A stretch of 64,000 nt of DNA from Hyaloscypha bicolor E. Lineage: Eukaryota; Ascomycota; Leotiomycetes; Helotiales; Hyaloscyphaceae. This document shows positions 15,301 through 35,985 of the stretch, piece after piece (positions within the stretch are counted from its first letter, which is position 1; every line of letters starts with the position of its first letter). The translations under genes were made by a program, and so were the position numbers. Under the pieces are notes generated by a model. That model was not told the origin of the DNA and did not search any database. It worked only from the letters and a program-made list of their open reading frames with translations. The stretch is taken from contig NW_020194626.1 in NCBI RefSeq assembly GCF_002865645.1, forward strand, positions 806,001 to 870,000, written 5' to 3'.

Positions 15301-18187
15301 TCAAAAGATCGAAAGCCACAAAGAAGAAGGTCAAGGCAGCGACTGCTCCTTCTGATGTTGAGAAAGGAAACAAGGAACGCATTCCCAGCGATTCATCAGG
15401 ATCTAGCGACATTCTAGGGGTGCAAGAGGAAGAGGCCCTCCAACAGATCTCCGGCTCCGAAAGTATCTTCACCTGGGAGGATGTAGAATACAGTGTTCCG
15501 TACATGGGAGACGAACGAAAACTCCTGAACAAAATCAGCGGCTATGCTAAGCCTGGAGTCAGTAAGTAAACAATGTTCATATTTGGTCCCCCCCAATTGA
15601 GTGATTCAAATACTGACAAAACTTTTAGTGATTGCACTTATGGGCGCGTCGGGTGCCGGTAAAACGTAAGTCCCAACTTCTCGGAACTTAATCCGTCTTG
15701 AAGCAAGGTTCCACAGCTCCTGCGACATTCTACTAGCAATGTCCAACAGTACCTGGAACACTCTACTCCCAAAACACTTGAACGAAGTACACTGACTCAG
15801 ATTTCTTGGAAACAGAACTCTTCTGAATACTTTGTCTCAGAGACAGAAGATTGGAGTTGTATCTGGGGATATGTTTGTCGACGGAAGACCCCTAGACACT
15901 GAATTTCAACGGGGCACAGGGTTTTGTGAGCAAATGGATCTCCACGATGGCACTGCAACTATTCGAGAGGCTCTGGAGTTCTCAGCCATTCTTCGACAAG
16001 ACCGCAACATCTCAAAAGCTGACAAAATCGCCTACGTCGACAAAATCATTCATCTTCTAGAACTCCACGATATGCAAGACGCTTTAATCAGATGCTTGGG
16101 AGTTGAACAGCGCAAGCGGGTTACTATCGGAGTTGAGTTGGCAGCCAAGCCTAATCTATTGCTCTTCTTGGATGAGCCCACCTCTGGGCTTGATTCTCAA
16201 TCGGCATACAGCATTGTTCGCTTCCTGAAGAAGTTGTCGCAAGCCGGGCAAGCAATCATCTGTACTATTCACCAACCATCTTCAGTCCTTATTCAAGAAT
16301 TCGACATGATTCTTGCTTTGAATCCTGGTGGACACACCTTCTACTTCGGTGCTGTGGGAGACAATGGCAGTGCGGTAATCAAGTACTTTGCCGACAGAGG
16401 CGTCCAGTGTCCACCAAACAAGAATGGTAAGTCGCTCTCCACAGACTTGAACAATATCCTGACGGCTAGAACAGTGGCTGAATTCATTCTTGAGACTGCG
16501 GCGAAAGGAGGCAGACGATCAGATGAAAGAGATTCAACTGGAACGACGAGTGGCTCAATTCAGAAAACGCAAAGGAGGTCAAGCAAGAGATCCAGAGAAT
16601 CAAGACCGAGCGAAGCAAAGTTGAAACTCGAGCCGCAGGCGATCAGCATGAATTTGCCTCACCTGTAGCTTTACAGACAACGGAGCTCACGAAACGCTTG
16701 TTCATCCAATACTGGAGAGAACCAGCATACCTTTACGGCAAGCTCTTCGTCTCGGTCATCATTGGTATCTTCAACGGCTTCACGTTCTGGAAATTGGGTA
16801 ACCAACCTATTTCTTTGTCCTATATCCCAAGCTCCTTACCTCACTGGTCCGGGGGATGTTTCATGCTCTCGTCTCTTTCCCTAAAGAAATACGTAGCTAA
16901 TTCATTCGTAGGTTACACCGTGGCCGATATGCAAGGTAATCCAAATTGCTCTTTTTTCGTTCGAGAGCTCAGCGCCGGGAACTTCACGGGAGCCTGGATG
17001 CGCATTTGTCTCGGGAGCATAGCTCCTCGGCTCCTCAGCTCCTGAGATCTCTCCCTTATTTTAGGAAACTTCCATACTAATTCGACGAATAGACAGAATG
17101 TTCACCTCCTTCCTCATTCTCCTAATTCCTCCAACTATCGTCAATGCCGTTGTACCAAAATTTTACCAGAACCGAGCTCTTTGGGAGGTGCGAGAACTTC
17201 CTTCCAGAATTTATGGCTGGGTTGCATTTTGTACGGCCAATGTTGTCGCTGAGATTCCAATTGCAATTCTCGGCGCAACAACCTATTGGGCTCTGTGGTA
17301 CTGGCCCACTGGTCTCCCGACTGATTCATCAACATCTGGCTACGTTCTCCTGATGACCATGCTTTTCGTGAGTCTCCTCTTTGTCCATTGCATTTTGAAT
17401 TCACCTAATAATAACAGTTTTTATTTCAATCAGCATGGGGGCAATGGGTAAGTTTATTTCCGTAACGAATTGCTATTTTCTTCTGTTGGAGCTGGGAGCC
17501 TGGGAGCGGGAGCCGGAATACGCATTCCTGTCTCGCGAGCTTGGCTCCTCAGCTCCTGAACTCTCTTTAGTAATTCAGCGAAACTACATACTAATTCGAT
17601 GACAGATCTGTGCCTTCGCTCCCTCATTCACAGTCATCTCCAACGTCCTCCCCTTCTTTTTCGTAATCTTCTCCCTTTTCAACGGCGTCGTGCGTCCCTA
17701 TGCCCAGCTCTCCGTCTTCTGGCGGTACTGGCTCTACTACCTCAACCCCTCTACTTACTGGATCGGTGGCGTCCTCGCTGCAACACTGAAAAACACCCCC
17801 GTCCGGTGTGCGCCTCAAGAAGCAGCATACTTCAACCCGCCCCCAGGCTCAACCTGCTCCTCCTACGCTCAGGCATTCGTGGACTCAGCAACTGGATACC
17901 TCACCAACCCCGACGCGACTACAGACTGCGGATACTGCCAGTACAGCTCCGGCGTCGACTACATGCGCACTCTTAACATCGAGCCCAAAGATAAGTGGAG
18001 ATATTTTGGAATATTCCTGGCGTTTTGCGTCAGTAATTGGGCGCTGGTCTACTTTTTTATTTATACTGTAAGGATTCGGGGGTGGAGCTTTGGGTTTGGG
18101 TATGTTTTTGGGGTTGCGGGGAAGGCGGGCGGGGCTGTTAAGGGGGTATTTAAAGGGAAGGGGAAGAAGGAGATTAAGGAAATTTAG
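12330..18187 (+). CDS. PDR/SNQ2-type full-size ABC transporter with an apparent frameshift
   Basis: This is an ABC-G drug-efflux pump with (NBD-TMD)x2 topology. Exons: 12330-12908, 13001-13450, 13504-14322, 14425-14556, 14602-14768, 14850-15157, 15211-15561, 15629-15665, 15816-16426, 16475-16797, 16912-16935, 17093-17367, 17418-17447 and 17606-18187. NBD1 has the PDR-specific degenerate GRPGSGCST, signature [10 protein letters not shown] and [13 protein letters not shown]2 has [20 protein letters not shown] and [18 protein letters not shown] segments follow both. Exon lengths total 4688 nt, one short of a multiple of three. Near 16524 the frame shifts: the expected D-G-K-R-F-N-W-N reads only after restoring one base, otherwise translation ends at 16668. 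Thirteen introns is many for this family, and five resemble introns elsewhere in the window. The start has a CACCATG context. Class is secure; substrate and function of this copy are unknown. Confidence 0.9.
14323..14424 (+). repeat. Intron of group 4 (related to intron 15666-15815)
   Basis: This is a 102 bp intron of the ABC gene. From GCAA[C/T]GTCCAACAG to its acceptor (GATTTCTTGG[C/A]AA[T/C]AG) it aligns over about 80 bases with the second half of the intron at 15666-15815, with only a few short gaps. Splicing here restores [17 protein letters not shown]. It is a candidate copied intron. Confidence 0.8.
15666..15815 (+). repeat. Intron of group 4 (related to intron 14323-14424)
   Basis: This 150 bp intron splits the NBD2 Walker A right after GKT. 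Its second half matches the 102 bp intron upstream. Its first 20 bases share AGTCCCAACTTC with the short intron at 14557-14601 of the same gene. The intron is therefore related to other introns of its own host gene. Confidence 0.8.
16798..16911 (+). repeat. Introner-like element, group 2 (copy in ABC transporter)
   Basis: This 114 bp intron starts GTAACC. The first 50 bases differ at only two positions from the intron at 35395-35511 of the unrelated HeLo gene. The two also share TCATGCTC and CCTAAAGAAATACGT in the second half. Together with the next element it brackets a 24 bp exon. Confidence 0.92.
16936..17092 (+). repeat. Introner-like element, group 1 (first copy in ABC transporter)
   Basis: This is a 157 bp intron. 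It shares GGGAGCCTGG, a CGCATT-[T/C]-GTCTCG block, CTCCTCAGCTCCTGA and CATACTAATTCGA with the 158 bp intron at 17448-17605. The correct acceptor is AATAG at 17092, restoring MQDRMFTSF, because the more obvious GACAG four bases later breaks the frame. The repeated GGAGC and GCTCC blocks can pair within the intron. Confidence 0.88.
17448..17605 (+). repeat. Introner-like element, group 1 (second copy in ABC transporter)
   Basis: This 158 bp intron starts GTAAGTTTATTTCC. The 5' part aligns with the verprolin introns at 40432-40576 and 39859-40033, and its 3' part with the intron at 16936-17092. A GGAGCTGGGAGCC stretch near its start and a GGCTCCTCAGCTCC stretch near its middle are nearly complementary, predicting a hairpin. 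Confidence 0.9.
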
Positions 18188-19043
18188 AGATAGAGAGGTA
18201 GAAATAGATTTGGGTTTAGCGATGAACTTGAGATTGAATTAATTAGTACTAGAGCATGTTGTTGGTTGAGTCTATGATCTCATCGTCTAGAATAAAGGAA
18301 CTGAGCATATTTCAATGTTTTACTCGAGAAGGACATCAACGACTATGAAATTAGAATGTCCTAAATAACTCGGGACATTCGAGGACCGAAAAAAAGTTAT
18401 TCAGTTACCATTCCGTAATCTTCCACTTTTTGCATAGGCAGCTAGTAGACAGGAAAAGCGGCACTGAATCTCCAATATTCCAAATCTAGCTGGTACATTT
18501 GACTAGGCTGGAGGACATCCGAATATTATTGTTCTGGATTCTCGAGATAGTCCAGGAGGGAGATTTTGAATCTACTACAAGTCGAAGGAACATTCGCAGG
18601 GTGCCTTTCTAAAATGTACCAACTAGATTTGGGATATTGGAGATTCAGTGCCGTCTTTCCTGTCCACAGCGAAATAGGTAAGAGATCACAATATTCTAAT
18701 CGAGAATCAAGTTTGTTATACCTCCCAATGCGAAGAGCCTTCAGTGATCAAGGTGCTTCTCGCATTACGAGGACAGCAGTTTCTATTTATAATCTTGTCT
18801 CCGTGTTTGGAGCAGCTGTGGCGACGCCACTGCATCCTAGCGCAGAAAAAATCCGGGGAAGCTTGCCCCTGTTCGCTCCAGCCAACATCGGCCCATCACA
18901 TGTCAGCACAAACTTTCTCCTTCATCACCTCTTTCGAGGTCTTTTCATCAGCATCACCATTTCTGCTACAAATGCCTCGTACCTTCAACTACGAGGCTGT
19001 ACCGTCAAAGAGGGGCTTCTGATTCTAAGCTTGTCATTGTCGA
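18188..19043. other. Intergenic region with an inverted-repeat element
   Basis: Apart from the element at 18448-18664, this holds the ABC transporter 3' region and the patatin gene promoter. A palindrome AATGTCC-N11-GGGACATT occurs around 18356-18380, like those near 33794 and 36622. The ORF at 18566-19243 overlaps element and promoter in a frame different from the gene and is not credible. Confidence 0.45.
18448..18664. mobile_element. MITE-like element with 53-bp inverted repeats
   Basis: Positions 18448-18500 and 18612-18664 are reverse complements with 4 mismatches in 53, all transitions. They begin GACAGGAAA and surround a 111 bp centre with no coding capacity. It is a different family from the element at 11256. 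All-transition differences fit either normal decay or mild RIP. It lies 380 bp upstream of the patatin gene and may contribute to its promoter. Confidence 0.8.
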
Positions 19044-20894
19044 ATGCCTTTCGGAATGGCGGGAGTTCTCAAAGCAATTTGGGGGATGCTGGTCGATGTG
19101 CTCCTGTTTTGGCAAATCAGGTTCTCCAGATGGTTGACACGCAAGAAGCCTGTGGAGGTTTGGTTCGAGATCCTGAGGAACGCGAAGTCTTACGAGGAGT
19201 GGGAGGAGGCAGCTTTTCAATTGGACGTGCTCTTGGGAAATGACTTGTGGTATGTCGAAATGTACTGGGAAGAGTGTGGACGTATCTAATATGTTAATGC
19301 ATAGGCGTCAAAATCCCACCTCGAAATACTACGATTATCGACTGATCCACGACCGGCTCCAATCTATCATCGTTGCCCGCGAAGAGGGCGATATCCTGCA
19401 GCTTGTCAATCTGCTACGGTCTGGTCTTGTGCGGAATCTGGGCAATATCTCCACCCCTCGACTGTTCAATCGAGCATTTGCTGGGACGAAATTATTGATC
19501 GAAGATTATATTACACAAGTTGCGCAAGCCATTGCAGATGTCACGAAACTGCCGACGTCCCCTGGTGCAGATGGCAATGGTGTGATACCAGGATTCAGCA
19601 GTCAGGCGAAGCTTGATTTATTACATGATACAAGACAAGCTTTTGGAAGAAGTACCTTGGTCCTCCAAGGTGGCGCCATTTTTGGTTTGTGCCATTTGGG
19701 AGTTGTGAAGGCTCTCTTTGGGCGGGGCTTGTTACCAAGGATTATTACGGGAACTGCTACTGGAGCCTTGATCGCGGCTTTAGTTGGAATACATACCGAA
19801 GACGAGCTCCCAATGTTTCTGAATGGCGATAGCATCGACCTCTCTGCCTTTGCTGGCAAGAGCTCAGCTGGGGAGAGCGGACAGGAAGAGAGAGGGTTTT
19901 TCGATGGTTGGTGGGATACCTTGACAAGAAGAGTTCGGAGATTCCTCCGAGAAGGCTACTTCTTGGATGCAACAGTGTTGGAGGAATGTGTGAGAACAAA
20001 CGTGGGTGACCTGACGTTTGAGGAGGCATACAACAGAACAAAGCGGGTTCTCAATATCACGGTTGCGACTACTGGAAGGGGGGGAGTTCCCAATCTTTTG
20101 AACTATTTAACGGCTCCCAACGTTGTTAGTAAAGTCGTTCACCACAACCAATTCTGCGAACTAATTTTCTATAGTTAATTTGGTCGGCAGCAATAGCTTC
20201 CAATGCCTCTTCCCCATCTCTGTATGGACGCTCAATTACTCTCAGATGTAAGGACACCTCCGGCGCGGTAATCCCGTGGTCTGTGGCATCCGACACGACA
20301 TTTCGACCTTGGACTCATGCTTCCTACAATGACAGAGATTCACCATTATCTCGAATCGCGGAGCTTTTCAATGTCAATCACTTCATTGTCAGCCAAGCTC
20401 GGCCATACCTCGTACCATTCCTCCAATCTGATATGCATGGCCCCTCACCACTTTACACACGCGGCGGACGAACGTCATTGACTGGTGGTCTACTGAGACT
20501 CATGACTATGGAAATTCATCATCGACTACAGCAACTCGATAGTCTTGGACCCCTTCCTTTGTCGATTAGGCGATTCCTAGTGGATGAGCATATTCCTGCA
20601 GCTTCAGTGACTCTTGTACCTGAGCTATCCGCAAGCGACTTTGTGCGTTTACTGGAGACACCTACTCAAGCTAGTCTTGATTACTGGATCTTGCGGGGAG
20701 AGAAGAGTGTTTGGCCTGCGGTTGGTGCTTTGAAGGTCAGATGTGCCATCGAATCAGAACTAGATCGTGGCTACCAGTTTGTGAGAAGGAGGAAGGCAGG
20801 AGGCTTGCGACGGCGAGGCAGTGCAGTTGATACCAATGGCAAACAGGCCGCAAGAGAACGTGAGCGTGCCAACAGCGCCGGTGCGAAATGGTAG
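19044..20894 (+). CDS. Patatin-like/DUF3336 protein (triacylglycerol lipase or phospholipase family)
   Basis: This belongs to the fungal family related to Tgl3/4/5 lipid-droplet lipases. Exons 19044-19249, 19305-20124 and 20175-20894 give 581 residues. A hydrophobic stretch (AIWGMLVDVLLFWQI) near the N-terminus could bind membrane. The DUF3336 region (KPVEVWFEILRN, EEWEEAAFQLDVLLGNDLW) follows, then the patatin core with oxyanion-type GGAIFGLCHLG. The nucleophile motif expected as GxSxG reads GTATG (TGTATGALIAA), so the usual serine is absent. I recall the same replacement in homologues, which would make this a distinct subfamily rather than a local mutation. An in-frame MPRTFNYEAVPS upstream is separated by stop codons and could be an unmodelled first exon. 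The start is therefore uncertain, the family secure. Confidence 0.85.
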
Positions 20895-22227
20895 GATCTG
20901 GGGAGATACGTTGCATCATCGGGCGTCCAACGTTGCGGGGTATTGAGCCGAATATCGAGCTTGAAGGATTAGGCAACGCCCCTAATGTAAGCAACTTTGT
21001 TCAAAATGCGACCGCGGCTTCAGCACATTCGCTAGATTCGAAACACATGATCGAGAATTCATGTGGCAGGGGACCTGTCTGGGCCGAAATCTGATAGGGC
21101 TGACAGATACAGCATCGAACGGGATCCTCGAGACAGTCCTCTAGACACGTCGAAGCTCTCTTGCATCTACGAGCTGTTGCTTGTGGGAGCTAGCATGAAG
21201 ATGGTGTGCAACTACCCCGCTATAACATCGCTTGGAGCCTCGATTGTGGAACATCAGCGAGGTCGGCCAGTTGGGGCTATGCAACAGCATTGTCAACTGA
21301 GTAGGGTTCACCTCGAAACATTCGGTTACCGGCGAGGACCGCCATGGCCCGAAGAAAATGAGTCAGTGTTTCGGGCCGGATTGTCTGGAACTTGTTCCGT
21401 GTTGTACGGAACCAAAGGTTGGTTCTCGAGAGTGGTATTGATGGGCGACCACTCTCACGATTCACGCTTAGATGCGGTGAAAGCGTGGAGGCTGAGCGAG
21501 CCGCTCTCTACTCGGCCTGTAGAACCCTTCCGTCCGCAAAACCTTGGAACTTGGAACAATGTGATATTATAAATCAATCCTTATCTTTGAGTTTCGTCGT
21601 CATGACTGTTGCTGAGGTGTAACTCTTCACACCAATCCTCCAGGTCACGACGTTGTTGGATAGGGGAGGACGTCGGAGAAGAGGAGCCGACGCTGGCCGC
21701 GCGACTCTTGCTCTTCTCATTATTCCGAATCCAAAATTCTCCGGACAACTTTGATTTGTTGTTTAACTTGAAAAAGTCGACCTTATTTCATGCTAATCTG
21801 CAGATACAACGGTTCGACGATCGCCCGTGGAGCTCAGCCCCACACGACAGAAGTGAGGCTGCCTAGCTGTCCTGCAAAGTGGTTGGCGTTGGAGTGGCCT
21901 TGTCTGGGAGATCTGTGGAATCTACATCCTATTTGTCGAAGCTTTAGGAGCTTGGACCCTGGGCCCCTTTTCACATGCCTTTGTGCAAGAAGTCCCAAAC
22001 TGTCAAGTCGGGCGTACTGCGTCATGCACAGAGATCTTGGATGATGCGAACTCCAAAAACGTGGTTCGCACATAGTGACAAGGGCACCAGAAATCAGTCC
22101 GTAAATCGGAAGTATCAGCCAGCTGATCCAAGCCATGAGCGGTCAACGTGACGCCGTGTCATCGGCTTAAGTTTGAGATGAATTGTTCTTGACCGTAGGA
22201 TGTTTGACGGATGGGCTTGGGGGGGTC

Positions 22228-22233
22228 TATAAG
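22228..22233 (+). promoter_or_regulatory. TATA box of the 246-aa protein gene
   Basis: TATAAG follows a G-run and precedes a CT-rich segment, about 340 bp before the start codon. This fits a core promoter followed by a long leader. Confidence 0.5.
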
Positions 22234-22492
22234 AGCCTCCCTCGCTCCTGCACCTTTGCCTCCACAGTCTCATTCTCATCATTACTGTAACGAATTGATC
22301 TTGCATTGAATTACTGTTTCTATTCATTTCTAATCTAACTTCCTTTCTGCTCGCGAGTTATATGCCACTAGTTTCCTAATCGTGCTTTTCTCTTCAATCC
22401 TACGAACATATCTTTTATTGATTCCAAAGAGCATTGCCCAGTCTGTCTTCGCTATTGATCAGCCTCATTATTCTTCAGCAGCTCCCTACCCC

Positions 22493-22540
22493 GTAAGTCA
22501 CATCATCCCTATATTACAAATATCAATTAACACACCACAG
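22493..22540 (+). other. Probable 5'-UTR intron
   Basis: This 48 bp segment starts GTAAGT and ends CCACAG with TATCAATTAACAC before the acceptor. It lies 34 bp before the start codon of the downstream gene. Removing it does not extend the reading frame, so it would be a leader intron. Confidence 0.5.
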
Positions 22541-22574
22541 CTCTCTTTGGCCATTTCGACTTCGCGCATTCAAC

Positions 22575-23315
22575 ATGCCTCACCAGAACCATGACATTGA
22601 CAATACTGATCAACCATATGAGGAGATTGATCAATGGGAACTGGCGTGCTTTCAAAGCAACAAACCCATATCATCTGATCGTCCTCTAAACTACAATTGT
22701 GAGCATTTTAGCTCCGTCGAGGTTGGAACTCATTCCAATGGCGCCGGACACCCAATGGTTCGCGAGCAGCCAATGTACCACTATGGAACAACAACTCAAA
22801 CTCAGTACCACAACCAAAGTCCTCAATCCTATGCATCATCAAATCTATCGGGTCCCTGCCCTGAGGGCCCAGAAAAAGAAGATCCCAACATGCACTTCGC
22901 CCCTACCTATCTTCCTTTGGGACCTCCCATCGGATTGAATGAAGTTCAGCATCAACGCACCGCATCTTTCAACTCCGATTATTCCGTACCAATGCTTCGT
23001 TTTCTCGGCGGACGTGACTACCCTGAGCACTACGCCACCGAGCATGCACCACCATTGGAGACCAGGTTTCTCCCTCAGGATCCTTACATCCAATCCTCGA
23101 AGAAAGGCCACGCGTCAACGAAGCGCAGTAAAGAGAGCCACATGAGCATGCAGAGCTGTGGCAGCCATGAGACGGGATATGATAGCTGGGGTCTCATGGA
23201 TCCGGTGGCGGAAGTTGGATCCTGGGATCGAGAGAGTGGGAAGCTGCGTCCTGGTGACTACGCTTTGGCTTTGAGTGGACTTACGGAATTTCATATTAAC
23301 GACGACATGAAGTGA
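22575..23315 (+). CDS. Hypothetical hydrophilic protein, 246 aa
   Basis: This is a single-exon reading frame with good start context (CAACATGCC) behind a clear promoter and leader. The protein is polar and low-complexity, rich in Gln, His, Pro, Ser and Tyr. It has no signal peptide, TM segment or recognised motif. A basic patch (KKGHASTKRSKESH) near residues 175-190 could act as a nuclear localisation signal. The order suggests a disordered regulatory protein. I do not recognise the family. Confidence 0.6.
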   Translation: MPHQNHDIDNTDQPYEEIDQWELACFQSNKPISSDRPLNYNCEHFSSVEVGTHSNGAGHPMVREQPMYHYGTTTQTQYHNQSPQSYASSNLSGPCPEGPEKEDPNMHFAPTYLPLGPPIGLNEVQHQRTASFNSDYSVPMLRFLGGRDYPEHYATEHAPPLETRFLPQDPYIQSSKKGHASTKRSKESHMSMQSCGSHETGYDSWGLMDPVAEVGSWDRESGKLRPGDYALALSGLTEFHINDDMK

Positions 23316-23943
23316 TGAGTTTGACCCTCCGAACTGGAAGGGCATACTGAAGGGGGTTAAATATAGACTGTACGAGGTTGATACCCGAGGCTTTCACAGG
23401 CCTCTTTTATGGGGTTCGGAGTTGCTGGGGATGTGCTTTTTTTCTTTCGTGTATACGCTACGATGTGCTGGGGCAGCTATCTCCTGTTGATGCTTTGATT
23501 CCTGTTTTGCTTCGCTTTGTTGGTGTTTGACCGGCTGGGATTCTATTAGCGATCGCGATACTTCATGTCTTGTGAACTTAGCGAGGAGTACCGGTTCACA
23601 GTATCTTTTTACAGCAGCAATTATAACCTTAAAATGCATTGATCATGACACCGCTGCATCCCCTCGTTCTTCTCCGCCAACCCAATTTTACCGTTTCATG
23701 ATCGCTATAGATTCAACGCCGATATCACACTCTACCATTAGATGACGAAAGCAGTATAGTGACTGCACCTCTTGACTTGGGAAGTCCGCTCATTCCTTGT
23801 AATGAGTTCTATTTTCCTAGTGCGGGCGGCAACTAGCCACTTTTCTACTGTGTTCATTTTGATGATCCTTTCTAATCCTAACTTACAGTTGAGGGGGAAG
23901 GTATTTGCTGAATAGCTCCTGGAACACTCGGCAGCACTATCTC
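23316..23943. other. Convergent 3' intergenic region
   Basis: These 628 bp lie between the stops of two convergent genes (the 246-aa protein and LEO1). I see only 3' regions and no RNA gene. Confidence 0.45.
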
Positions 23944-25314: not shown

Positions 25315-25704
25315 GGTATGTATCGTGGAGGGTGGAAGAGCTGGCGAAGGATGTTCGTTGAATGGTTTGGATGAGGGAATTATTAAAGTCTCGCCGTTCT
25401 CTTGCGACAGCCCTGGGATGAATGTTCAAGCCAAATTCGAGGCAGTAAAATAAACAATAAAGTTCGATGCCGCTTTAGATGGTTTCTACTGCACTGTAGT
25501 ACCCTTAGGGCGGCCGCCAAGCTAGTGCACACCGGTATTCGTCCCAGATCCCCTATTCCTAAATCTATCATCAAACTTCCACCTCAGATCCTCTTCTCTA
25601 CAACAACACGCTTCCTCCCCGATACAATAACCATTAGCTCGGCTGTCCATTCACCACTCGTCGAGGAGCCGCTTAGGGCTCTGATCAGCTGACTGTCAGC
25701 CAGC
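25315..25704. promoter_or_regulatory. Bidirectional promoter region LEO1/MOB2
   Basis: These 390 bp separate the start codons of two divergent housekeeping genes, so both promoters lie here. No TATA box was obvious. Confidence 0.55.
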
Positions 25705-27457
25705 ATGTCGAACTTGTTCTCAGGGATGTAGGTATCTTTTTCTTGTCCACATTAAATTGGGGGATGGGAATTTGTTATTGGTGTTCACTGTAGTTGAATT
25801 CCTTGAAGCTACATTCTGGTTTACATTTAAAATGTGGCATCAGTGCAATACTACTTGGGCTAGTGGCTCAGCCGCGATTTCAAGCTGACGGTGACCTCTG
25901 ATCCGAGAGCTCTTCCAAAGCTATTCCTGCCCCTCACGCATTAGACACTCTCAACCGAGTGTATTCTACGTTTGATTGGCCTAGATCTTCCATCCCTCCC
26001 CTCAGCTTTGTACCAGTATTAGGTGTTCTCAAGCCTGCCCTTTGTTCTCTGTCTGGGAAACTAGATCGTTACTACAAGTTGCTGGATTTCTGACAACTGG
26101 ACGCCAACGATCTTTCTGAAGTCTCAGTCCTCTAAAATATTGTCGCAATGAACTTCTTTACTGTCATGTTTTCCCGGTGTTTTGCCGAGCTAGCTATCCT
26201 CCCCCCTCGTTTATGTATGCCACCTCGCCCGATCTCGGAACTTTTGCTAACGAACTCTTTTACAGCAGTGGACGCTTCCGCGGTGGTGGTAAGAACGGTG
26301 GTACCAAGAGTCCTGGACCGCCAAACGGAGCACAGCCAACATCACCTACAGGCACATTACAGAGCGGTTCATCGTCAACGAGCTTAGCACCCAGAATGCC
26401 CCCCTTGCCCAGCTCCCCGTCGCTTTCACAAACCCTATCAATGGATGACTCAACTGGAAGCCTTCCCAGCGGTGACGCTCTCTCCTTCTACAACCTTCCC
26501 CGCCCCAAGCCCATCTGGCTGAATGATTCCTACGCCAAGCACATCGTCAAAGGCAACTTCATGACATTGTCGGCTCGACCAAAGACCGTAGAGCAAGGTG
26601 AATGGATCGCACATCAAGGTGAATGCTTTAGATCGTTCTCTGTACTAGCCCTGCTAACACATTTTTTGCTCAGTCGTTGAGCATTATCGCAACCTCTGGA
26701 ACTTTGTACGCGTTATCCATGACAAGGACGAAGAGGGCACTTCGATCTGTAATTCTCAAACTTGTCCCCGCATGTCTGCTGGCGCGTAGGTCTCCTCCCG
26801 CAGCCCTTTCTGCTAATCGATCTAATTCCTTCTAGCAACCATTCGTTCACCTGGCTGAACGCCAGAAAAGAGCCTGTTGAGGTCCCCGCCCACGAGTACA
26901 TCTCTCTGATGCAAAGATGGATCTCCGGCAAGATCGACAACACTGCCATCTTCCCAACCGATCCAGCAGGTGTCTCATTCGCTTACAATACTGGCAATCC
27001 CGACATCGCTAGTGCTACCTATGCTTCTGGCGGACTGAACACACCAGGTTCCAATACGCCCATCCCAGCTGGACCAACTGCTTTGACCACATCACTTTCA
27101 CAACTTGCTGGCCCTGGCGATTGGGTTGGCAAGAGTAGCGGGTTCCCAGTCGATTTTGTGGAGGTCTGCCAAACAATCTTCCGTCAAATGTTCCGTGTTT
27201 ACGCTCATCTCTACTGGGCACACTTCATTGATCCGTTCTATCATCTCAGCCTTGAGAAGCCAATGAACAGTTGTTTCAGTCACTTTGTTCTCACTGCTAC
27301 TGAGATCGATATGCTGAAGCCTCACGAGTTGGAGCCAATGCAACCGTTGATTGATCTCTGGGCTGCGAACGGAACCTTCCCTAAGGAGTCAAAGGCGTAC
27401 GCTTGCGCAAATCTTAAAGCCGGCGAACGATTACTTTCTCTTGCTGGTGTCAACTGA
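25705..27457 (+). CDS. MOB2: Mob2-type kinase activator
   Basis: Mob2 binds and activates the NDR kinase of the morphogenesis (RAM/COT1) pathway controlling polar growth and septation. Exons 25705-25727, 26266-26618, 26674-26785 and 26836-27457 give 369 residues. The 23 bp first exon encodes MSNLFSG, and the junction MSNLFSGISGRFRGGGK matches fungal Mob2 N-termini. The Mob domain has FMTLSARPKTVEQGEWIAHQ, the zinc-binding Cys/His set (CNSQTCPRMSAG; HLYWAHF), VEVPAHEYISLMQRWI, and a Gly/Ser/Thr-rich insertion near residues 225-265 that is usual in filamentous fungi. Intron 1 is 538 bp, long for this genome, with GCTAAC near its end. Family secure; the first exon rests on N-terminal similarity. 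Confidence 0.9.
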
Positions 27458-27819
27458 ATACGGAGACTCAAGGGCTGGTTATTTATAAACTTGATGTTGA
27501 TGAGAATGAACAGGATGCTTTTCAGATCGCGCTGAGAGGGAACAGATTTCCTGAACTCTGTTTTCGGTGAAGTTTATTTGATTTTCCCGCGTGCATATGG
27601 AAGGAAGTTGATAGCATGAAACAGCGAGGAAATTTCCGGTTGGCGTTTCTGATTTCAATAAGAAGGTTCTTGCGCGTGCTAGAGGGCAAGGCTGGTTAAT
27701 TATGGAACGAAGAGAATAAAAGCCATTCATGCATTCATGCTATGGACTGCGGGTTTTAGTAAGCTATTTGAAGAAACATCATGATCCGTCTTCCATCCTC
27801 ACTTGCGTCGTTTCCTTCT
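27458..27819. other. Convergent 3' intergenic region
   Basis: These 362 bp lie between MOB2 and the convergent DUF3237 gene. Nothing beyond 3' regions was seen. Confidence 0.45.
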
Positions 27820-28796
27820 TCATTGAGCAGCCACCTCACTGATTTTATACCTGGATAACTTGAAGTTAGTATTACTTGGGTAAGAAAACTTCAATGCCCT
27901 AGACTCTGGGGGGTAGTGAAAGGAGAAGACTTTGAGTGGACACAAGTCACGAGATATCGAGACTGGGAAAACAAGCCGAACGTGATAACGTACTCAACAA
28001 CGGGAGGTTTGCCAGCCTCAATGATGAATCTTCCACTGGCAACATAAACCTTCTGCTCCATGAGCTTCAACTCATCACTTCCGGTTTCGAACAAGACATG
28101 GGTCACTAAAATAAAGGGGAGGTTTCAGACAGACAGGCTAGGTAATGTCCCAGAATACTTACGAACATCACCAAACTCCGTAGTCTTTGCGTCCTTGCTT
28201 CCAGTCAAGACAGCGGTTGGTCTGGGGCGGAGTCAGCACTTGGTCCATACAGATTGTTCCAAACGAACCGGAACATTGTCTGGAAGGAAATCATGAGACG
28301 GTCAGAGTTAGGAAAAAGGGACTTCTCCCCCAATACCTACCCTGGCTTCATCTCAATAATACCACTGTATTTGTAGCTGATGATGGCACCGCTTTTACTG
28401 TCCTTCAAGACGGAGTTAACGTCCAACCGAACGTGCTTGCCGCTGGGATCACCGCGAATGAAGTCCGATCCGTGAACAAAGGTGGCATCAACTTTGACGG
28501 GATAGCCTGGCTCAGAACGGAGGAAGCTGTTCTCGGAAATGAATGGGACAACTGTAAGTGGACCGCTCTTGGAGACGCTGCCAACTGAGAATGGTGGGTC
28601 GAGGACGATCTGTGTGAGTTTTAACAATCATCACGATGCAGAGCGTTCCATGTTCAAGCCTTTGCCGATTGAATGACGGGAAATGTTGGTATGCATTTGA
28701 ATCATAGTATGACTTGCCAGTGTGCCGAGGTGGCACGAGAAGGGATGCTCTTACATGGGTAGTGAAAGCGGGAATGAGCTTTGGGAAGCCAGACAT
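27820..28796 (-). CDS. DUF3237 family protein
   Basis: This small cytosolic beta-barrel-type protein belongs to a family found in bacteria and fungi with no firm biochemical role. Exons 28755-28796, 28341-28609, 28163-28221, 27994-28105 and 27820-27850 give 170 residues. Family signatures are DPPFSVGSVS at the N-terminus, DFIRGDPSGKHVRLDVNSVLK, ISYKYSGII, AKTTEFGDV, and the end GSDELKLMEQKVYVASGRFI followed by VVEYKISEV. All junctions restore the frame and family pattern. The last intron uses GTACGT and joins GA to G to give EYK. The intron at 28222-28340 belongs to a repeated intron group. Five exons in about 980 bp is intron-dense. Confidence 0.85.
28222..28340 (-). repeat. Introner-like element, group 3 (copy in DUF3237 gene)
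   Basis: This 119 bp intron starts, in gene orientation, GTAGGTATTGGGGGAGAA. It shares this start, GTCTCATGAT, an AGACAA block and TTTGGAACAATCT with the intron at 35206-35309, and TTGGGGGAGAA, CATGA and AGACAATGT with the intron at 58617-58733. The three hosts are unrelated genes. Confidence 0.88.
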
Positions 28797-29643
28797 CTTG
28801 AAAATCGGCTGTAGACTTGTTGGAGGCTGAATTGGGTGGATTGACGTTGAAGGGGAGTTGGCAGAATTGCGATGTTCAAAGACCGTGGTGAAAAAGAGGA
28901 GAAGGGGTGGTTGGTGGCAGGTTCGGTTACAATGCACCCGGAAGCGACTGTTCGGTGTAACTTCATCTTACCCCTCGCACCTTCCCGTATAACGCTATCG
29001 ACCCCACATGAACTGTGATTTGCGCCATTAGGCTTACGAGCGACATCCAGTGGCGGAATTGAAACATGAGAAATTAAGCTTGTAAAAGCTGAGCTGGTGC
29101 CTTGCCCTGGACACAAAAGCTGCGTCAATTTCCCATGTCCCAGGTCAAAGTAGAACACTGATGGAGGATATTCAAAACATGCGGCTTTTTCTGTCAAATG
29201 GCGAGGGTTCTGGCTTCCAATGTCCCAAGTCAAATTGGTCACTCGCAAGACTTCCCTAACAAAATTTCCCTCTGATTATCGTGTACTGAAATTGTGCTCA
29301 CTTGGAACAAATCGACAGCGTTGGAATGTCTGAGTTGTCTGAGTTTCTCTCCTTCCTGGCTAAGAAAAAAGTCCAAATTAACTAGGTCCATCTAAACATT
29401 CATACCGCTTTTCAGCTCACTCGACAGAGGTTTGATTCTGCTGCGTTTCCTACCGATTACCCGCTTTTGCGTCGATCATCTTTAACAATACCCACCGTGA
29501 GTATGCACAGGAGCTCAAACAGGTTGAAATCCATATTCACAAAGACCGCACTGTTTCATCTTCAACCATTCTCAGGTATCATTGACCGGTATTTTTGTGC
29601 CCTCAACGCCTATGCTTTGAGCAATAGCTACAACATTTAGATA
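28797..29643. other. Intergenic, ERB1 3' end to DUF3237 promoter
   Basis: These 847 bp have no supported gene. Two related stretches, CATGTCCCAGGTCAAAG near 29133 and ATGTCCCAAGTCAAATTGG near 29220, look like a diverged direct repeat. The minus-strand frame at 28751-29248 is an upstream shadow of the DUF3237 region. Confidence 0.45.
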
Positions 29644-32021
29644 TCACATCCATAATCGACAAGTACCATCTGCACCGGCACTCACAAGCCAGGGCTCCCT
29701 CGGATGCCAGTCTACGTCCATAACACCCAAAGCACTCTTGACCTTGTGCCCCTTCAGTACTTTGACTGGTACGATAGTGGCATTTTCCATCATATCACTG
29801 ACAACCTTGCCATGAAATATTTGCAGGCTCCCGTCGTCACTGGCGTCTGCAAAAAGGGGGAAACCTCCCTTGTGATATTTCACCGCACGAATAGCTTTCG
29901 AATGGAATCTCATAGTCTTATAAGGTCGTGTAGAAAGGTCAAGATCGTGCCAGAGTAGTCGTCGATCGTAGGATCCAACAATCAGATTATCTCCTCCAGG
30001 ATGTATATCAAAGGAAGAGATCCATCGAGCTCCAGGCTGGATAATTTTGACAAGTTCCTGCTTTTGAAGGTCATAGCTTCGAATCGTCCGCTGAGTAGCA
30101 ACGAAGAAAAGGGGCCTCGAAGGGTGAAACTGCACAGTTTGCGGTATGCCAGGTAATCGGCGGAAGGGAATTTGGGTGAGGTGTTTCGAGAGGGTGTGGA
30201 TTGCAACAGCGCTCTTTTGTGCTGTTGGAGAAACGGTTGAAAAGAAGTCTCCTCTTCGATGCCAGCTTATGACTTTGACAGTGGTTCGGACGGTGATCTT
30301 AATGAGAACACCTTCATCTTCAAGCCGCGATCCAGGCCGAGTCCATTTTGCTGCGGGGTCTTTCCTGGCTCCATTCGCTGTGAGAGCTTGTGTAGCATTC
30401 GTTGCATAGCCAAATCCTGCATCAAGTAATTCTCGACTGGAGGCATCTGTTTCTGGATCTGTGACTGGAGGCACCAGGAGGTAGATATCTTCGCCGGCTG
30501 CTGCGGATAGGATGACTGCATCCTTTCCTGGTCGCCATCTGACAATGTTGACGGCCTCACCATCGCCAATCTTTGCACTCCAGATTTGTCTGCCGGTCAA
30601 CAGCTCCCAGACACGGACAGTGCCGTCATCTCCACCGCTAGCCAGCCAGATTCCTGAGGGATCAATCGCCAAGCTCCTGGCACGGCCCTCGTGACCACGG
30701 AATAAGGTAGAGCAGACTGTTGGAAATGGTTTGAGCTCTTCAGGCCGAGGAAGTTTAGGGAGTAAGGATGCAGGATCGATGTTGAGTCTATTCTTGCGTA
30801 CTCGGGGTGCAAGATACAGGTCTAAGGAGCGTTCGAATCTTTCTTTGACAAACTTCTCGTAGCCTGGGACTTTCCGCAAGGAATCGTAACCAGTCGGTAA
30901 GTAATCCCTTTCTCTGTCTTCTGGGTCGGTTGATTCCCAAGTTTGCTTTTCTGCTTTTGTAGGGAGGTATTCAGGTGGTGGGTTATAACTTAAGTCATAA
31001 CCTGGCGGAAGCATTTTTGGAGCCGGAACATTCATGATGTTGTCTGGACGAGATTGTTCATCCTGCCAAATATCGTAGTGTATTTCTTCCTCCTGTTCCT
31101 CTTGCTCTTGAGGTGGCCTATACGGAAGTATTCTGCCTTCTCGTATGGCTCGCACAATCTTCATTATTCTCCTGGCTTCATGCTTTGAAGGAAGGAAGCG
31201 TCGTTTCGGTTCAGGCGCAGCACTTAAAGGCATGATCTCCTCAATTCCAGTGAAATATTCAACGGTAGCCTAATGGTGTTAGTGAAATCATAAAAGGTCC
31301 ACTGCATATGGCTTACAGGATATGGATCATAGCCCTCCTCCGGCAGCTCATTCGTTTGTATTCTTCGCAAAATCTCAAGCTCATCTTGGCTGAGATTGAG
31401 CGGCTTCCCTGTTGCTGGATCCGTAAGTCCAGTCCATCCGTTGGGGACATCAATGCTGTCCAACAACGCATCCAATGCTTCCCCCTTGGCAGGCCGCATT
31501 ATCTTCTTTCCATTGATATCATAGCCAATGTGTGGGTAAGAATCGTAGAACGTAAGGGGGATGTTGCCAATAGTGTTGGTAGTCCCTGGTGCATCTGAAT
31601 CATCCGAATCATACACCGGATCTATCTCACCGTACACATATCTCTCTCCACCATTGGCATCTGTGGTGATTGTGTAATTAGGCTTGTCTTCCTCTAGTGA
31701 TGACGGCGAGACCAATTCCGGAAGAAGGTTTGCCTTGGTGCCATTGCTCTTCTTCAGACCATCATTCGTTTCCTCTCCCTCGCTCTCGAGATCGTCAGAC
31801 GGGATTTCATCGCTATTAAGAGTCTCAATTTCGTCTAGTTCGTTGTCTTCCTCTTCTTCGTCCTCCGAGCCCTCGTCACTTCCATCGTCTGAATCCTCGC
31901 TTTGCGACAAAATGCCTTCCAGGAGTCCATCCCCAAACTCGGCCTCAGACTCAGCATCCGAGGTTTCAGGAACATCCCGAGTAACGGCCTTGCGCTTTCT
32001 GTCAATGGTGGTGGGCGCCAT
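29644..32021 (-). CDS. ERB1: Ribosome biogenesis protein Erb1 (Bop1)
   Basis: Erb1 is the scaffold of the Erb1-Nop7-Ytm1 (PeBoW) complex needed for 27S rRNA processing and 60S subunit maturation in the nucleolus. Exons 31317-32021 and 29644-31269 give 776 residues. An acidic N-terminus ([20 protein letters not shown]) leads into the BOP1NT domain ([59 protein letters not shown]). A C-terminal WD40 propeller ends [13 protein letters not shown]. The ATG at 32021 (ATAATGGCG) is the first in frame; the open frame extends 45 bp further only through a TTG. The intron is 47 bp. Very secure. Confidence 0.95.
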
Positions 32022-32265
32022 TATTGCTTCGAAGCTGTTGAAGGAGAGCTTTGAAGATTTTCCCAAAATATTTCTCGATGTGCTTAACCTTATCTCTTAT
32101 CTTAGCGCCATTTGGACGTGAAGGCTGGTTGAGCTGTGCCGCAGAAGTGTCACCTTGTTGCCTCACGCTGGCAGTGCCGTTCTCTACAGTAAACAATGCA
32201 TCTGACATCTCACGACCTTTGACTTACGGAATCTCGAACCCAAGTGCTGCGGTGCTCTTGTCGTG
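32022..32265. promoter_or_regulatory. Bidirectional promoter ERB1/Zn2Cys6 gene
   Basis: Only 244 bp separate the divergent start codons, so both promoters must lie within it. No TATA box is evident. Confidence 0.5.
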
Positions 32266-33660
32266 ATGCCTGAAAAGACGGAGACGGTGGTCAAGCACAG
32301 AGCCTGCGATGAGTGCAGTCAGGATCCATGTTTCTGATCGGGAGCAGGACCTCGATTACTGATCCAAATTCAGGAACTCGAAAGCTTGCGTGCTCGAAAG
32401 ACCCAGACGGATGCGAGCGGTGCAAAAAGGAGAAAATCGTGTGCCACTACTCGGAACAGAAACCGTACGCATATTTCAGAGTCCATGTTGCATGTCCCAA
32501 TAATATACGACGGAGTACTAACTCCAACATTGTCCAGTATGGGAAGGCCGAGGAAACGTCAGTTCATTGAATCAACAACTGACGATGTTGCCCCCGACCA
32601 AGTTGATCCCCTTGACTTAGGCCCTATTCCTTTCGGCGACGGTGACTTCGACTCCTATATGGACGGCATGCTAACGGAGCCTTATTTCACGAATCCATTG
32701 TCAGCTTTGACACTCCCGCCAGAGTCCACGATTCCTGGGCCAGTACCAACAGCTGAGAATGGACACGGTGCTTGGAGCTTTGGACACCAAGATATAATGG
32801 GAGTACCGCCGATCAACTTTGGAAACATTGATTTTGGGACCGTAGACCATACACCTCCTCTCGACCCAGCGCCGCAACTGTCTACGGACTCAAATGCAAC
32901 AGTCTCGAGTGAGAGTTCACCGCCCCAGTCTACTGGAGGCCCTGGCTGCAGTTGCTTGGCATCAATGTATTTATCATTGGCGTCGATGCAAGAGTTCCCC
33001 AGCGATATTGTTAAAGCCCTGAGAACTGTTCGATCCGCATGTGCAACAGCAGCTGCGACTATATGGTGTCAAAAATGCGGTACTGTTCTCCTTGACAACC
33101 CAACTCCTCCCATCGAGGCCTTCCAGAATGTTATGCTTCTTGGGACTATCTTACCCATCATCGCAAATGGCTACCAACAGCTTCTCCAAATGATAGACGA
33201 TGAGACGACTAGGGCAGAATCGCTTGGGCAAACGAAAACCTTCAGATTTCACGACTATGGTGGGCTGTGTGGCCAACAGGTCATTTCAGATAAAGTGGAT
33301 TGTGCTGAGACCGCCAAGCTCTCCCGTCCTGTTGAGATGCCTCCCCAACAGTGGCGGACTACCGTGAGAGCTTTATTGAGAGTGGACATATATGGCCATG
33401 AGCAAACAGGCTTTAAGCATAAAGGCTTGAAGGACTTGGTTGCTGAGATGGAAAACCGTCAGAGGACCCGTCATGAGATGTTGGACGCTCGTGCCGCTGT
33501 TCTAGGCACAGATTCTGTGGAGATGGGTCCGTTCGGTTCCGCCAAAGCTGGTGTTGGGGGACACGGCCACACAACATGTGCTCAAGGAGCACAACCTCAT
33601 GCATGTTTGCAGATCTTGCAGGTAGCTAAGTCTGCCATCGATAACCTCACCATTGCTTAA
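32266..33660 (+). CDS. Zn2Cys6 (C6) transcription factor
   Basis: This encodes a fungal-type DNA-binding regulator of 421 residues. Exons are 32266-32317, 32374-32464 and 32538-33660. Both introns fall inside the zinc cluster region. Splicing gives RACDECRTRKLACSKDPDGC then ERCKKEKIVCHYS, a complete six-cysteine binuclear cluster, followed by the basic KPMGRPRKR linker. The second intron has a TACTAAC branch motif. The C-terminal part (GGPGCSCLASMYLSLASMQEFP, CATAAATIWCQKCG, LLGTILPIIANGYQQLL) has conserved cysteines typical of AflR-like C6 proteins and lacks the long fungal TF middle-homology region. No metabolic cluster lies beside it, so its target is unknown. Confidence 0.88.
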
Positions 33661-34007
33661 GAGGATCAATTGTTGAGCTCAGCGACCCTACGAGCTCACC
33701 TCGGAGTGAGCAAAGACTGCGCACTGGAATTTCAACGTCCCAAGTGACGTTAGTCGTTTAGCCTTATATGGACTCGGAACGAGAAGACTTGAATGTCCTA
33801 GAACTCCAGGGACATTTGAAGACTTAGCCCTTAAATGTACGATAGGTCCAGGGAACCTTTGAAATGTTCAACTTGATGTGGGACATTGAAAAATGATCGT
33901 CGCTTTTCGTGTTCACTACGAGCCCGCATTGCTGCAAGATCGCCAGGACCTATCAAGACTTGGATTCCGGGTTAGCTTCAAAGTCTAGATTTCGTTCTAA
34001 TGACGAA
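33661..34007. other. Convergent 3' intergenic region with palindrome
   Basis: These 347 bp between convergent genes contain AATGTCC-N11-GGGACATT at about 33794-33818, resembling copies near 18356 and 36622. No gene seen. Confidence 0.45.
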
Positions 34008-35985
34008 TTATACACGAAGGGTCTCCAACGATTCCACAACATATTCCATCAGCTGTCCGGCTTCTTGGCCTGGGAGATCTTCTCTGGCAAAGATGCATCG
34101 CTCGACTACCTCCCTATACATCCTGCCAGTCTTGCTATTCAAATTTGGTATAAGATTCTGGACTACAACCTTATCTCGGAACCTTTCTGCAGAGTAGTGT
34201 GGCTTGTGATAAAGTTGAAGAACTTTCCACAAACCAATCTCTAACAGAACAATGCCTAAGCTATAAATATCGAAGCTCTTGCAATATGGCTTCCTTGACA
34301 TTCCGTTCAAGGAACTAGGATGGCGGTGGAGATCGGAGGCAGCTGGATTCTTGCTCCCTACAGACATTTCACCGATACCGTCGGGCCGCGAGACATCGAA
34401 GCCTAGAAGATATGGGGATGATATATCTGGTATGCTCGCAGCTGCCGCGGTGGTTTTCGTGGCTGAACTCGAGAACGCCGAAGGGAAGAACAAGACATTC
34501 GAACTGGAGAAAGATTTATGAAGCCAATCAAGGGAATGTAGGGACCATAGAGCAACGGCCAAAGTGTGGGCCAGCTTGAATCGGTCGCCAAGATCTGGGG
34601 TCCTGAACTCGTTGCTATTTATGAGTGTGTTGAGGTTCGAAGACGATGGCTGGGGGGCTTTATATAATAATCCGTATTGGTTCACTGTGGTGTCATCTGT
34701 ATAGCCCAAGCAGTCTCTGGATAAGAGAGGAGTCAGCAACTGCTCCTTGACGATTGTCCCCAGAAGATTGGGACTTTGTCCGGAAGTGTTTAAGAGTGAC
34801 TTTCCCTCACTTACAGCGTGTGGAGATCTGGATGTCGATTAGAAGCACTATGAATGCATCTTGCGAGGTCATCCACTCTTCTAACTGTGTTTAACCTCGC
34901 ATCGAGATCCTCTTTATCATATTCTACCCACTCAACAAGAACATTTTCGATACTGGATGTTGATGGATTTTTATAAGCACCGTGATTTCGTCTGACGTCT
35001 TGACCTGAGAACGAAAGATCCGTTCGTTGTATTTTCAGAGCATACGTTGGCTTGAAATGCGCGGTGGTTTTGGTGTCGAGATTGATTTTCAACTGCTTCA
35101 GGCTAGCGGAAGCGTTCAATTGAGGATATACCCCACTTGAAGCAGTTTCCAGCAAGCTCAATTTAGCCAGATCCCTTTGTGCACTTTGCAGAAGCTCATT
35201 CGTCCCTGATGTGATCGGCGAATTAGCAAGATTGTTCCAAAATAATCAAGATTTTGTCTCGGAGGTATCATGAGACTGGCCGGGTAGGGTTTCTCTCCCA
35301 GTTACCTACATGCTCTCTGAACGCTGGCCAGCCTCGAAGGCGGAAACAACTGTTCAAGCCCATCGTTATAATCCTTCAAGTCTCTTAAAAGCACCTACCA
35401 ACCAATTAACAACGTATTTCTTTAGGAAGGAGAGAGCTGGGAGCATGAGATATCTTCCCACCCAGTGAGGTAAGGAGCTTGGGATATAGGACAAAGAAAT
35501 AGGTCCGTTACTGTAAACTTCTCCTTGTCGGCGATAACCCATTTCGCACGCAACTGCAGCTCATTCCTCAATCTCCCCGCTACACTTGAACTATCCGTCT
35601 TCTTCGGTGCGGGCAGCTTCTCATCAACAGGACTCATAAGCTCCTCTCTTAACCCATACCTATCCTGCAACTTATTAAAATCCGTAATCGTCCGATGCAA
35701 TTGCGTCAAAATAGAGACAGCAAGCTGCCTCAACCTCTGATTCCCCGAATTGCTCTCAGCCTGCAAATGAGCTTCCAGCTTTCCCTCGACAACGCCCCAT
35801 TCTCGTCCCCAGACCAGCAACCGCATTTCTTCGATGCGGATCTTGCAGACGAGTCGCTCGCTATCTCGCCCGAGGTTCGCTGCCGTGGTGAAGAAGGCGT
35901 AGGCCTTTATGCATCCGTCGAAGGTCTGAGCCAGGACCCCGACAGCACCTACAAGACCTAATGCTGTTCCCAGTGCTTCGGCCAT
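34008..35985 (-). CDS. HeLo-domain protein with degenerate C-terminal kinase domain
   Basis: Exons 35512-35985, 35310-35394, 34815-35205 and 34008-34716 give 552 residues. The N-terminus (MAEALGTALGLVGAVGVLAQ, FDGCIKAYAFFTTAANLG, CKIRIEEMRLLVWGREWGV) is a HeLo (prion-inhibition) domain, the helical-bundle cell-death execution domain known from HET-S. The last 230 residues resemble a protein kinase C-lobe (LAHTLAVALWSLHSLDWLHK; FDIYSLGIVLLEIGLWK). However, the catalytic-loop HRD and Lys read HKSFSSSN, and DFG appears as GFD, so catalysis is unlikely. HeLo plus pseudokinase parallels the animal necroptosis protein MLKL. I infer a role in nonself recognition or regulated cell death. Two of three introns are repeat-group members. 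The first ATG is 35985; the frame upstream opens only with TTG. Confidence 0.85.
35206..35309 (-). repeat. Introner-like element, group 3 (copy in HeLo gene)
   Basis: This 104 bp intron opens GTAGGTAACTGGGAGAGAAA in gene orientation. It aligns along its length with the DUF3237 intron at 28222-28340, including GTCTCATGAT and TTTTGGAACAATCT, and carries TGCTAATTC near its end. Confidence 0.87.
35395..35511 (-). repeat. Introner-like element, group 2 (copy in HeLo gene)
   Basis: This 117 bp intron starts GTAACGGACC in gene orientation. It matches the ABC transporter intron at 16798-16911 at about 48 of the first 50 bases and shares CCTAAAGAAATACGT near the 3' end. The exon sequences around the two copies are unrelated. 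Confidence 0.92.

Follow-up and report, generated by a model that had tools for sequence, protein, structure and literature searches.

Background

Introner-like elements (ILEs) are known in the Dothideomycetes from Fulvia fulva, Dothistroma septosporum and Zymoseptoria tritici (Collemare et al. 2015, PMC4457414). In this study, we analysed a stretch of 64,000 nucleotides from Hyaloscypha bicolor E (contig NW_020194626.1, positions 806,001 to 870,000; referred to as the window throughout), in which one intron of an ABC transporter gene and one intron of a HeLo-domain gene almost certainly belong to an introner family. Like the Dothideomycete ILEs, this element is found as near-identical introns in unrelated genes, in several families per genome and in both recent and decayed copies, and it exceeds the length of regular fungal introns, given as 50-55 bp (PMC4457414). 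Unlike them, it resides in a host from the Leotiomycetes (Hyaloscypha: Helotiales) and its copies number dozens, which is a lower bound, as compared to hundreds. The likeness is one of description and not of sequence comparison. Among named species, a 682-residue reading frame from the window finds its closest counterparts in Stipitochalara longipes (77%) and Hyaloscypha variabilis (73%), and a protein from a JGI source matches it at 99%.

The origin of introns is a long-standing question, and ascomycete introners are an outlier in showing no signs of DNA transposition (PMC9860276). Neither target-site duplications nor terminal inverted repeats were reported for them (Gozashti et al. 2022, PMC9860276), a trait common to these introners and the element described here. 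Seamless insertion, near-terminal inverted repeats and the absence of an exon base bias are on record for the sequence-similar stwintrons of the Xylariales (PMC8469720, PMC12403724). Our element resembles the stwintrons and cropped sister introns of Hypoxylaceae and Xylariaceae in inserting without duplication and in its near-terminal inverted repeat, which can pair as RNA. It differs from them in that the 3' arm of the repeat lies upstream of the branch point and not between branch point and acceptor, and in that an exon base bias is present where none was reported. Some base preference is already on record, since according to PMC8469720 the ILEs of van der Burgt et al. showed a preference for AG/GY sites; a family-specific exon base was not found mentioned in the accessible part of PMC9860276.

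For Leotiomycetes, Helotiales or Hyaloscypha we found no introner report in a literature consisting mostly of papers outside subscription, so that an earlier listing is possible. Two papers combining introners with Leotiomycetes or Helotiales (PMC3510045 and PMC11889510) apparently do not concern introners in that class, as far as their accessible parts go. The kind of element is already known; the part which we regard as new is the difference in exon base between its families. In this genome the family is compact and has sharp ends, near-identical copies and relatives with empty sites.

Two window introns and their copies in the genome

The first intron (copy 1, locus L001; 16798-16911, plus strand, 114 nt) lies in the ABC transporter gene and the second (copy 2, locus L005; 35395-35511, minus strand, 117 nt) in the HeLo-domain gene. 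Both start with GT, end with AG and belong to subfamily A. Their coordinates had been given in a preliminary description of the window and were borne out by inspection of the sequence, together with two further statements: the first 50 bases differ at only two places (intron positions 6 and 7), and the stretch CCTAAAGAAATACGT is present towards the 3' end of both introns. Over their full length the introns are 82% identical (E 2.3e-25 against the 82 Mb genome), a likeness far above chance. A single Pfam match spans the junction of each intron-free peptide, ABC2_membrane for the first and HeLo for the second. The preliminary description placed the introns in a "group 2", a label which may refer to the second, longer family (C) found in the same ABC gene.

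A whole-genome search had been proposed there, and the finding of these two copies only was to count against introners. With the first intron as query, 40 of 48 candidates were scored and the genome gave at least 41 matches, two of which are fragments of a single copy; with the second, 40 of 42 candidates were scored and at least 40 matches obtained. A young copy and a copy from another subfamily, used as further queries, each yielded at least 40 matches, out of 66 and 70 candidates. Moreover, a 19-base pattern of the element, with up to 3 mismatches allowed, occurs at 90 places of the genome as compared to 17 for the reversed pattern. We examined 80 loci: similarity searches supplied 66, among them the two window copies, and a further 14 were chosen visually among the pattern places. 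All 66 of the former and 8 of the latter contain the verified element (the exceptions being L073, L074, L076, L077, L079 and L080). The genome hence holds not two but at least 74 verified copies, a lower bound because the remaining pattern places were not retrieved.

Boundaries were set by script and corrected manually in 8 of the first 40 copies and in L052. In the 34 later copies the script shifted the donor to the nearest GT if needed, which was the case for L045 only, and took the first AG past the branch sequence as acceptor.

Element anatomy

The consensus of subfamily A comprises 128 nt and reads GTAACCAACCTATTTCTTTG ... AAAGAAATACGTTGCTAATTCGTTGGTAG; copies of subfamily B mostly end in TTG(A/C/T)AG. 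In 71 of 74 copies GT occupies the position projected for the first base; in L025, L038 and L045 the donor was moved by a few bases. An AG acceptor, either the first AG past the branch sequence or set by hand, is present in 73 of 74; the script places it at a distance of 14 or 15 nt from the first base of the branch sequence in 69 of the 74. The copied unit therewith coincides with donor and acceptor and carries canonical GT-AG ends and a branch-point sequence. The first 40 copies measure 107-139 nt and four later copies 87-94 nt. For predicted ordinary introns of the same DNA the median length is 53 nt (n=53), a value conditional on a control that sought only introns of 45-95 nt with GT[AG]NG donors.

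The element possesses an inverted repeat near its ends. In L003, positions 6-20 have their complement at positions 99-113 (of 128), which end directly before the branch sequence, and an inner hairpin is next. A stem formed by the two arms could hold the donor close to the branch point. In copy 2 the arms are located at 35492-35506 (5' arm) and 35410-35424 (3' arm, both minus strand) on the grounds of sequence, alignment and fold; the predicted fold holds most of the stem (TATTTCTTTG and its partner). In copy 1 the arms at 16803-16817 and 16882-16896 (plus strand), the latter followed by the branch point CTAAT (16897-16901), were placed by alignment and pair counts and are subject to the reservation that the stem is absent from the predicted fold of this copy alone. 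Among 39 aligned copies 84.0% of the inverted-repeat cells pair, as compared to 41-48% with slid partners.

Insertion sites

The flanking exons of the two introns had been described as unrelated, and this held wherever copies were compared: flanks are without similarity. Of the 1418 hits in an all-against-all comparison that took in the first 40 copies, their flanks and the window (182 kb), 11 fall outside the element. Similarity reaches both splice boundaries and stops there, as checked in the flanks of these 40 copies. Copies with 98.4% (the highest value), 96.1% and 95.3% identity sit in unrelated surroundings, and the closest four copies (L003, L008, L012 and L015), with a mutual identity of 91-98%, have dissimilar flanks. 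A flank match was found in none of the 8 closest pairs, down to 90.6% identity, which refutes an origin of these pairs by duplication or conversion.

Codon usage, trained on long open reading frames (ORFs) from the same loci and the window, indicates that most copies lie in frame in coding sequence. After excision, the upstream and downstream flanks share their best codon phase in 55 of 74 copies, and the other 19 are divided between the two wrong registers as 10 and 9; for random sites taken from the same loci, agreement is 306 of 1008. Restricted to copies in which both flanks score above 1, the registers split 38:3:2 (38/43 concordant). The sense codon score exceeds the antisense score at 61 of 74 copies. 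Intron phases 0, 1 and 2 are represented by 21, 17 and 17 of the 55 concordant copies; subfamily B leans towards phase 0 (16/30) and subfamily A away from it (5/25). An earlier test by ORF length around the junction was rejected: at least 20 codons were open on both sides in 34 of 40 spliced and also in 31 of 40 unspliced sequences. It is a poor test since the genes are rich in introns, and it was replaced by the codon-usage test with its random-site control.

For 20 of the first 40 copies the two exon pieces were joined by XX and compared to Pfam. One family spans the join in nine peptides, namely the two from the window as well as Sugar_tr (L006), COesterase (L007), Hydantoinase_A (L010), AMP_N (L012) and, below the Pfam cut-off, Glyco_hydro_3 (L003) and MFS_1 (L024 and L028). 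The other eleven gave no match or one-sided matches.

Empty sites were sought within this one genome. The ABC transporter peptide with both introns removed (86 residues; the second of these introns is the family C copy described below) matches four genome stretches in single open frames, three of them covering residues 2-86 in 255 bases and one covering residues 2-84 in 249 bases. A fifth relative covers residues 33-86 in 162 bases. All five are uninterrupted, with three bases per residue and 30-40% identity. Since relatives of the ABC gene in the same genome are without the intron, an old shared intron is disfavoured. Reciprocal empty sites were found as well: L019 and L026 lie in homologous genes (52% identity over 65 residues) that carry copies at different positions, each being continuous where the other is interrupted.

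Exon bases next to the intron

Concerning the exon bases at the insertion site, subfamilies A and B were assigned from the element body alone, with the last 30 alignment columns excluded. The base after the intron is G in 25 of 33 copies of subfamily A (T in 2), while in subfamily B it is T in 26 of 41 (G in 7). The subfamilies differ with Fisher p 2e-7 for T and 4e-7 for G. In predicted ordinary introns T follows in 8 and G in 22 of 53; from these subfamily B departs clearly (p 1.5e-6) and subfamily A moderately (p 0.003). Before the intron, B is unconstrained (A/C/G/T 11/10/9/11), and A has G in 16 of 33 copies, about as ordinary introns do (24/53). Family C follows another pattern. G precedes the intron in all 17 copies accepted by script (p 2.8e-5 versus ordinary introns), and after the intron there is no clear preference (A/G/C/T 6/5/4/2). 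Seven further family C sequences were read by eye, with G in L088, L089, L093 and L102, A in L090 and L092, and L098 unreadable. This gives G in 21 of 24 in total, the seven read by eye included. All these p-values are nominal because it was inspection of the data that first revealed the preferences.

We tentatively propose that each introner family has its own target rule, which consists of one exon base on one side of the intron: G before for family C, G after for subfamily A and T after for subfamily B. If true, the intron itself would help to choose the birthplace of new introns, beyond what the host spliceosome does, and the specificity would have switched between closely related subfamilies. 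A different explanation is that the element carries the family-specific base along and overwrites one base of the target. We consider this improbable, and residues at the junction of seven B genes bear on it. In L035 the junction residue is F as compared to V in a yeast enzyme, just as a G overwritten by T would yield; the residue of this gene counts as indecisive, along with those of L044, L054 and L061. Against overwriting, the residue that requires T is identical in the aligned solved homologue of the remaining three (L060, L065 and L063: W, W and V), the matching residues being W in invertase, W in AlkB homologue 3 and V in Rsa4. A target preference is tentatively favoured over base replacement. 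Whatever its cause, the exon-base difference is a quantitative matter that reverse splicing, break ligation and transposase would each have to explain, and it is cheaply testable in other genomes.

Mechanism of spread

Dozens of copies, unrelated flanks and ABC-gene relatives without the intron support the view, put forward in the preliminary description, of recent copying by an introner-like element, and suggest that new introns were recently born here by copying. Very probably, this is a fungal introner-like element that multiplies as a unit and lands in coding exons of unrelated genes, each time giving rise to a new intron. How the window introns were copied is something we infer, as the preliminary description did in its turn. 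The element would spread through RNA after its excision as a spliced intron. The near-terminal stem, with the donor region paired to the branch-point region, might keep the excised RNA compact or stable. Either spliceosomal reverse splicing or ligation at a DNA break would then insert this RNA into a transcribed gene, where it would be copied to DNA. Landing would involve one exon base at one intron end, with base and end differing by family. The route through RNA, to which we give a slight preference, is the best supported because duplications are missing and the ends of the copies coincide with the splice sites. Between reverse splicing and break ligation the balance is roughly even.

Several results weigh against this account or parts of it. 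Codon phases are discordant in 19 of 74 copies, for which neighbouring introns and untranslated or non-coding sites could be the explanation. Removal of the element from mRNA is a prediction from frame agreement and thereby indirect. The HeLo peptide matched only itself in the genome and so gave no empty site. L033 has AA instead of AG as acceptor. Exon bases that differ by family are not predicted by a mechanism resting on the host spliceosome alone. As to the stem, pairing does not rise above that obtained by shuffling partners among the 39 aligned copies (84.0% in both cases), compensating changes are not enriched (3 double-change pairs versus a shuffle mean of 4.4) and RNAalifold predicted no consensus structure for the element copies. 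Single folds of five copies gave z values of -0.66, -1.06, +0.69, -1.94 and -4.72 relative to shuffles, so that four of the five fold no or little better than shuffled sequence. With no compensating changes, no consensus structure and weak folds in four of the five copies, a part for the stem in spreading is hypothetical. Its pairing looks inherited from the progenitor and not maintained copy by copy.

The AA acceptor of L033, near position 1446 (minus strand), lies between flanks that agree in frame; decay of the splice site, a pseudogene or an error in the assembly may account for it.

For stwintrons, Fekete et al. have a model without reverse splicing: the RNA of an excised intron is ligated into double-strand breaks of the DNA and copied to DNA during repair. 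As the whole explanation we consider this rather doubtful, even though several observations suit it. Target-site duplications were not found in 40 copies, all phases are well represented, and the near-terminal inverted repeat is comparable to the NTIRE-10 elements (PMC12403724). What fits less well is the non-random neighbouring base, whereas the authors of the model report no bias; ligation could have an end preference of its own. The opposite phase leanings of subfamilies A and B also speak against it.

A non-autonomous DNA transposon is the next candidate, that is, an introner resembling miniature inverted-repeat transposable elements (MITEs) which is inserted by a transposase and incidentally spliceable, as in algae and other eukaryotes. 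Among the non-ascomycete introner families that could be judged, 78.5% show target-site duplications, terminal inverted repeats or both (PMC9860276). Our element has an inverted repeat near its ends, and a one-base exon preference could represent a short target site. Nevertheless, no target-site duplication was found at 30 boundary registers of 40 copies, none exceeding shuffles, and 8-base windows at 25 shifts gave no within-locus boundary match beyond shuffles in the same 40 copies. Terminal inverted repeats were not found either: the repeat of the element starts 5 nt inside the donor and ends about 15 nt before the acceptor, and for this reason is near-terminal only. Furthermore, the copied unit extends from splice site to splice site, and sense coding flanks predominate. 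Taken with these points, a transposon origin is unlikely.

A last alternative, in which old introns travelled with duplicated genes or segments or were passed between related genes by gene conversion, is extremely improbable: gene families do exist in the fungus, and one pair of homologous genes has a copy in each member, but these sit at different positions, and flanks are unrelated even above 95% identity.

Family C and neighbouring features

The second family is represented in the same ABC gene by two introns on the plus strand. The intron next to copy 1 (16936-17092, 157 nt) matches the profile hidden Markov model (HMM) of family C with E 1.7e-38, and a further one (17448-17605, 158 nt) with E 1.9e-42, both being members of the training set. 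As genome queries they gave 16 and 18 matches, respectively, themselves included, the other matches of the latter showing at most 83% identity. Copy 1 and the adjacent family C copy are separated by an exon of only 24 nt (16912-16935, plus strand), which thus lies between introners of two families. The ABC peptide without both introns aligns gap-free to a CDR1 chain.

Elsewhere in the window, the minus strand contains degenerate family C copies at 40441-40574 (E 8.8e-12) and 40256-40389 (E 1.8e-10), a degenerate and partial one at 39925-40033 (E 2e-10) and, in the same cluster, a weak partial match at 40142-40194 (profile positions 100-153, E 0.00074). Within this cluster (39925-40574) a direct repeat of 67 bases with 81% identity is found at 40199-40265 and 40384-40450. 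The arrangement suggests that an exon together with its introner may have been duplicated in tandem.

Outside the window, both families also meet in one stretch at L055, where a family C copy (1695-1852, minus strand) lies about 70 bases from a subfamily B copy. The stretch retrieved for L013 contains an A/B copy and also a family C match (4-123, E 1.5e-14), and at L048 a second, partial element-like match (1076-1172, minus strand) stands beside the full copy.

Two further repeats were noticed. A match of 46 bases with 85% identity, outside the introners, connects window positions 33863-33908 to positions 321-364 in the flank of the L033 copy. Downstream of the ABC-gene frame 17603-18187, an inverted repeat of 56 bases with 91% identity is formed by 18445-18500 and 18612-18667, its arms being 111 bases apart.

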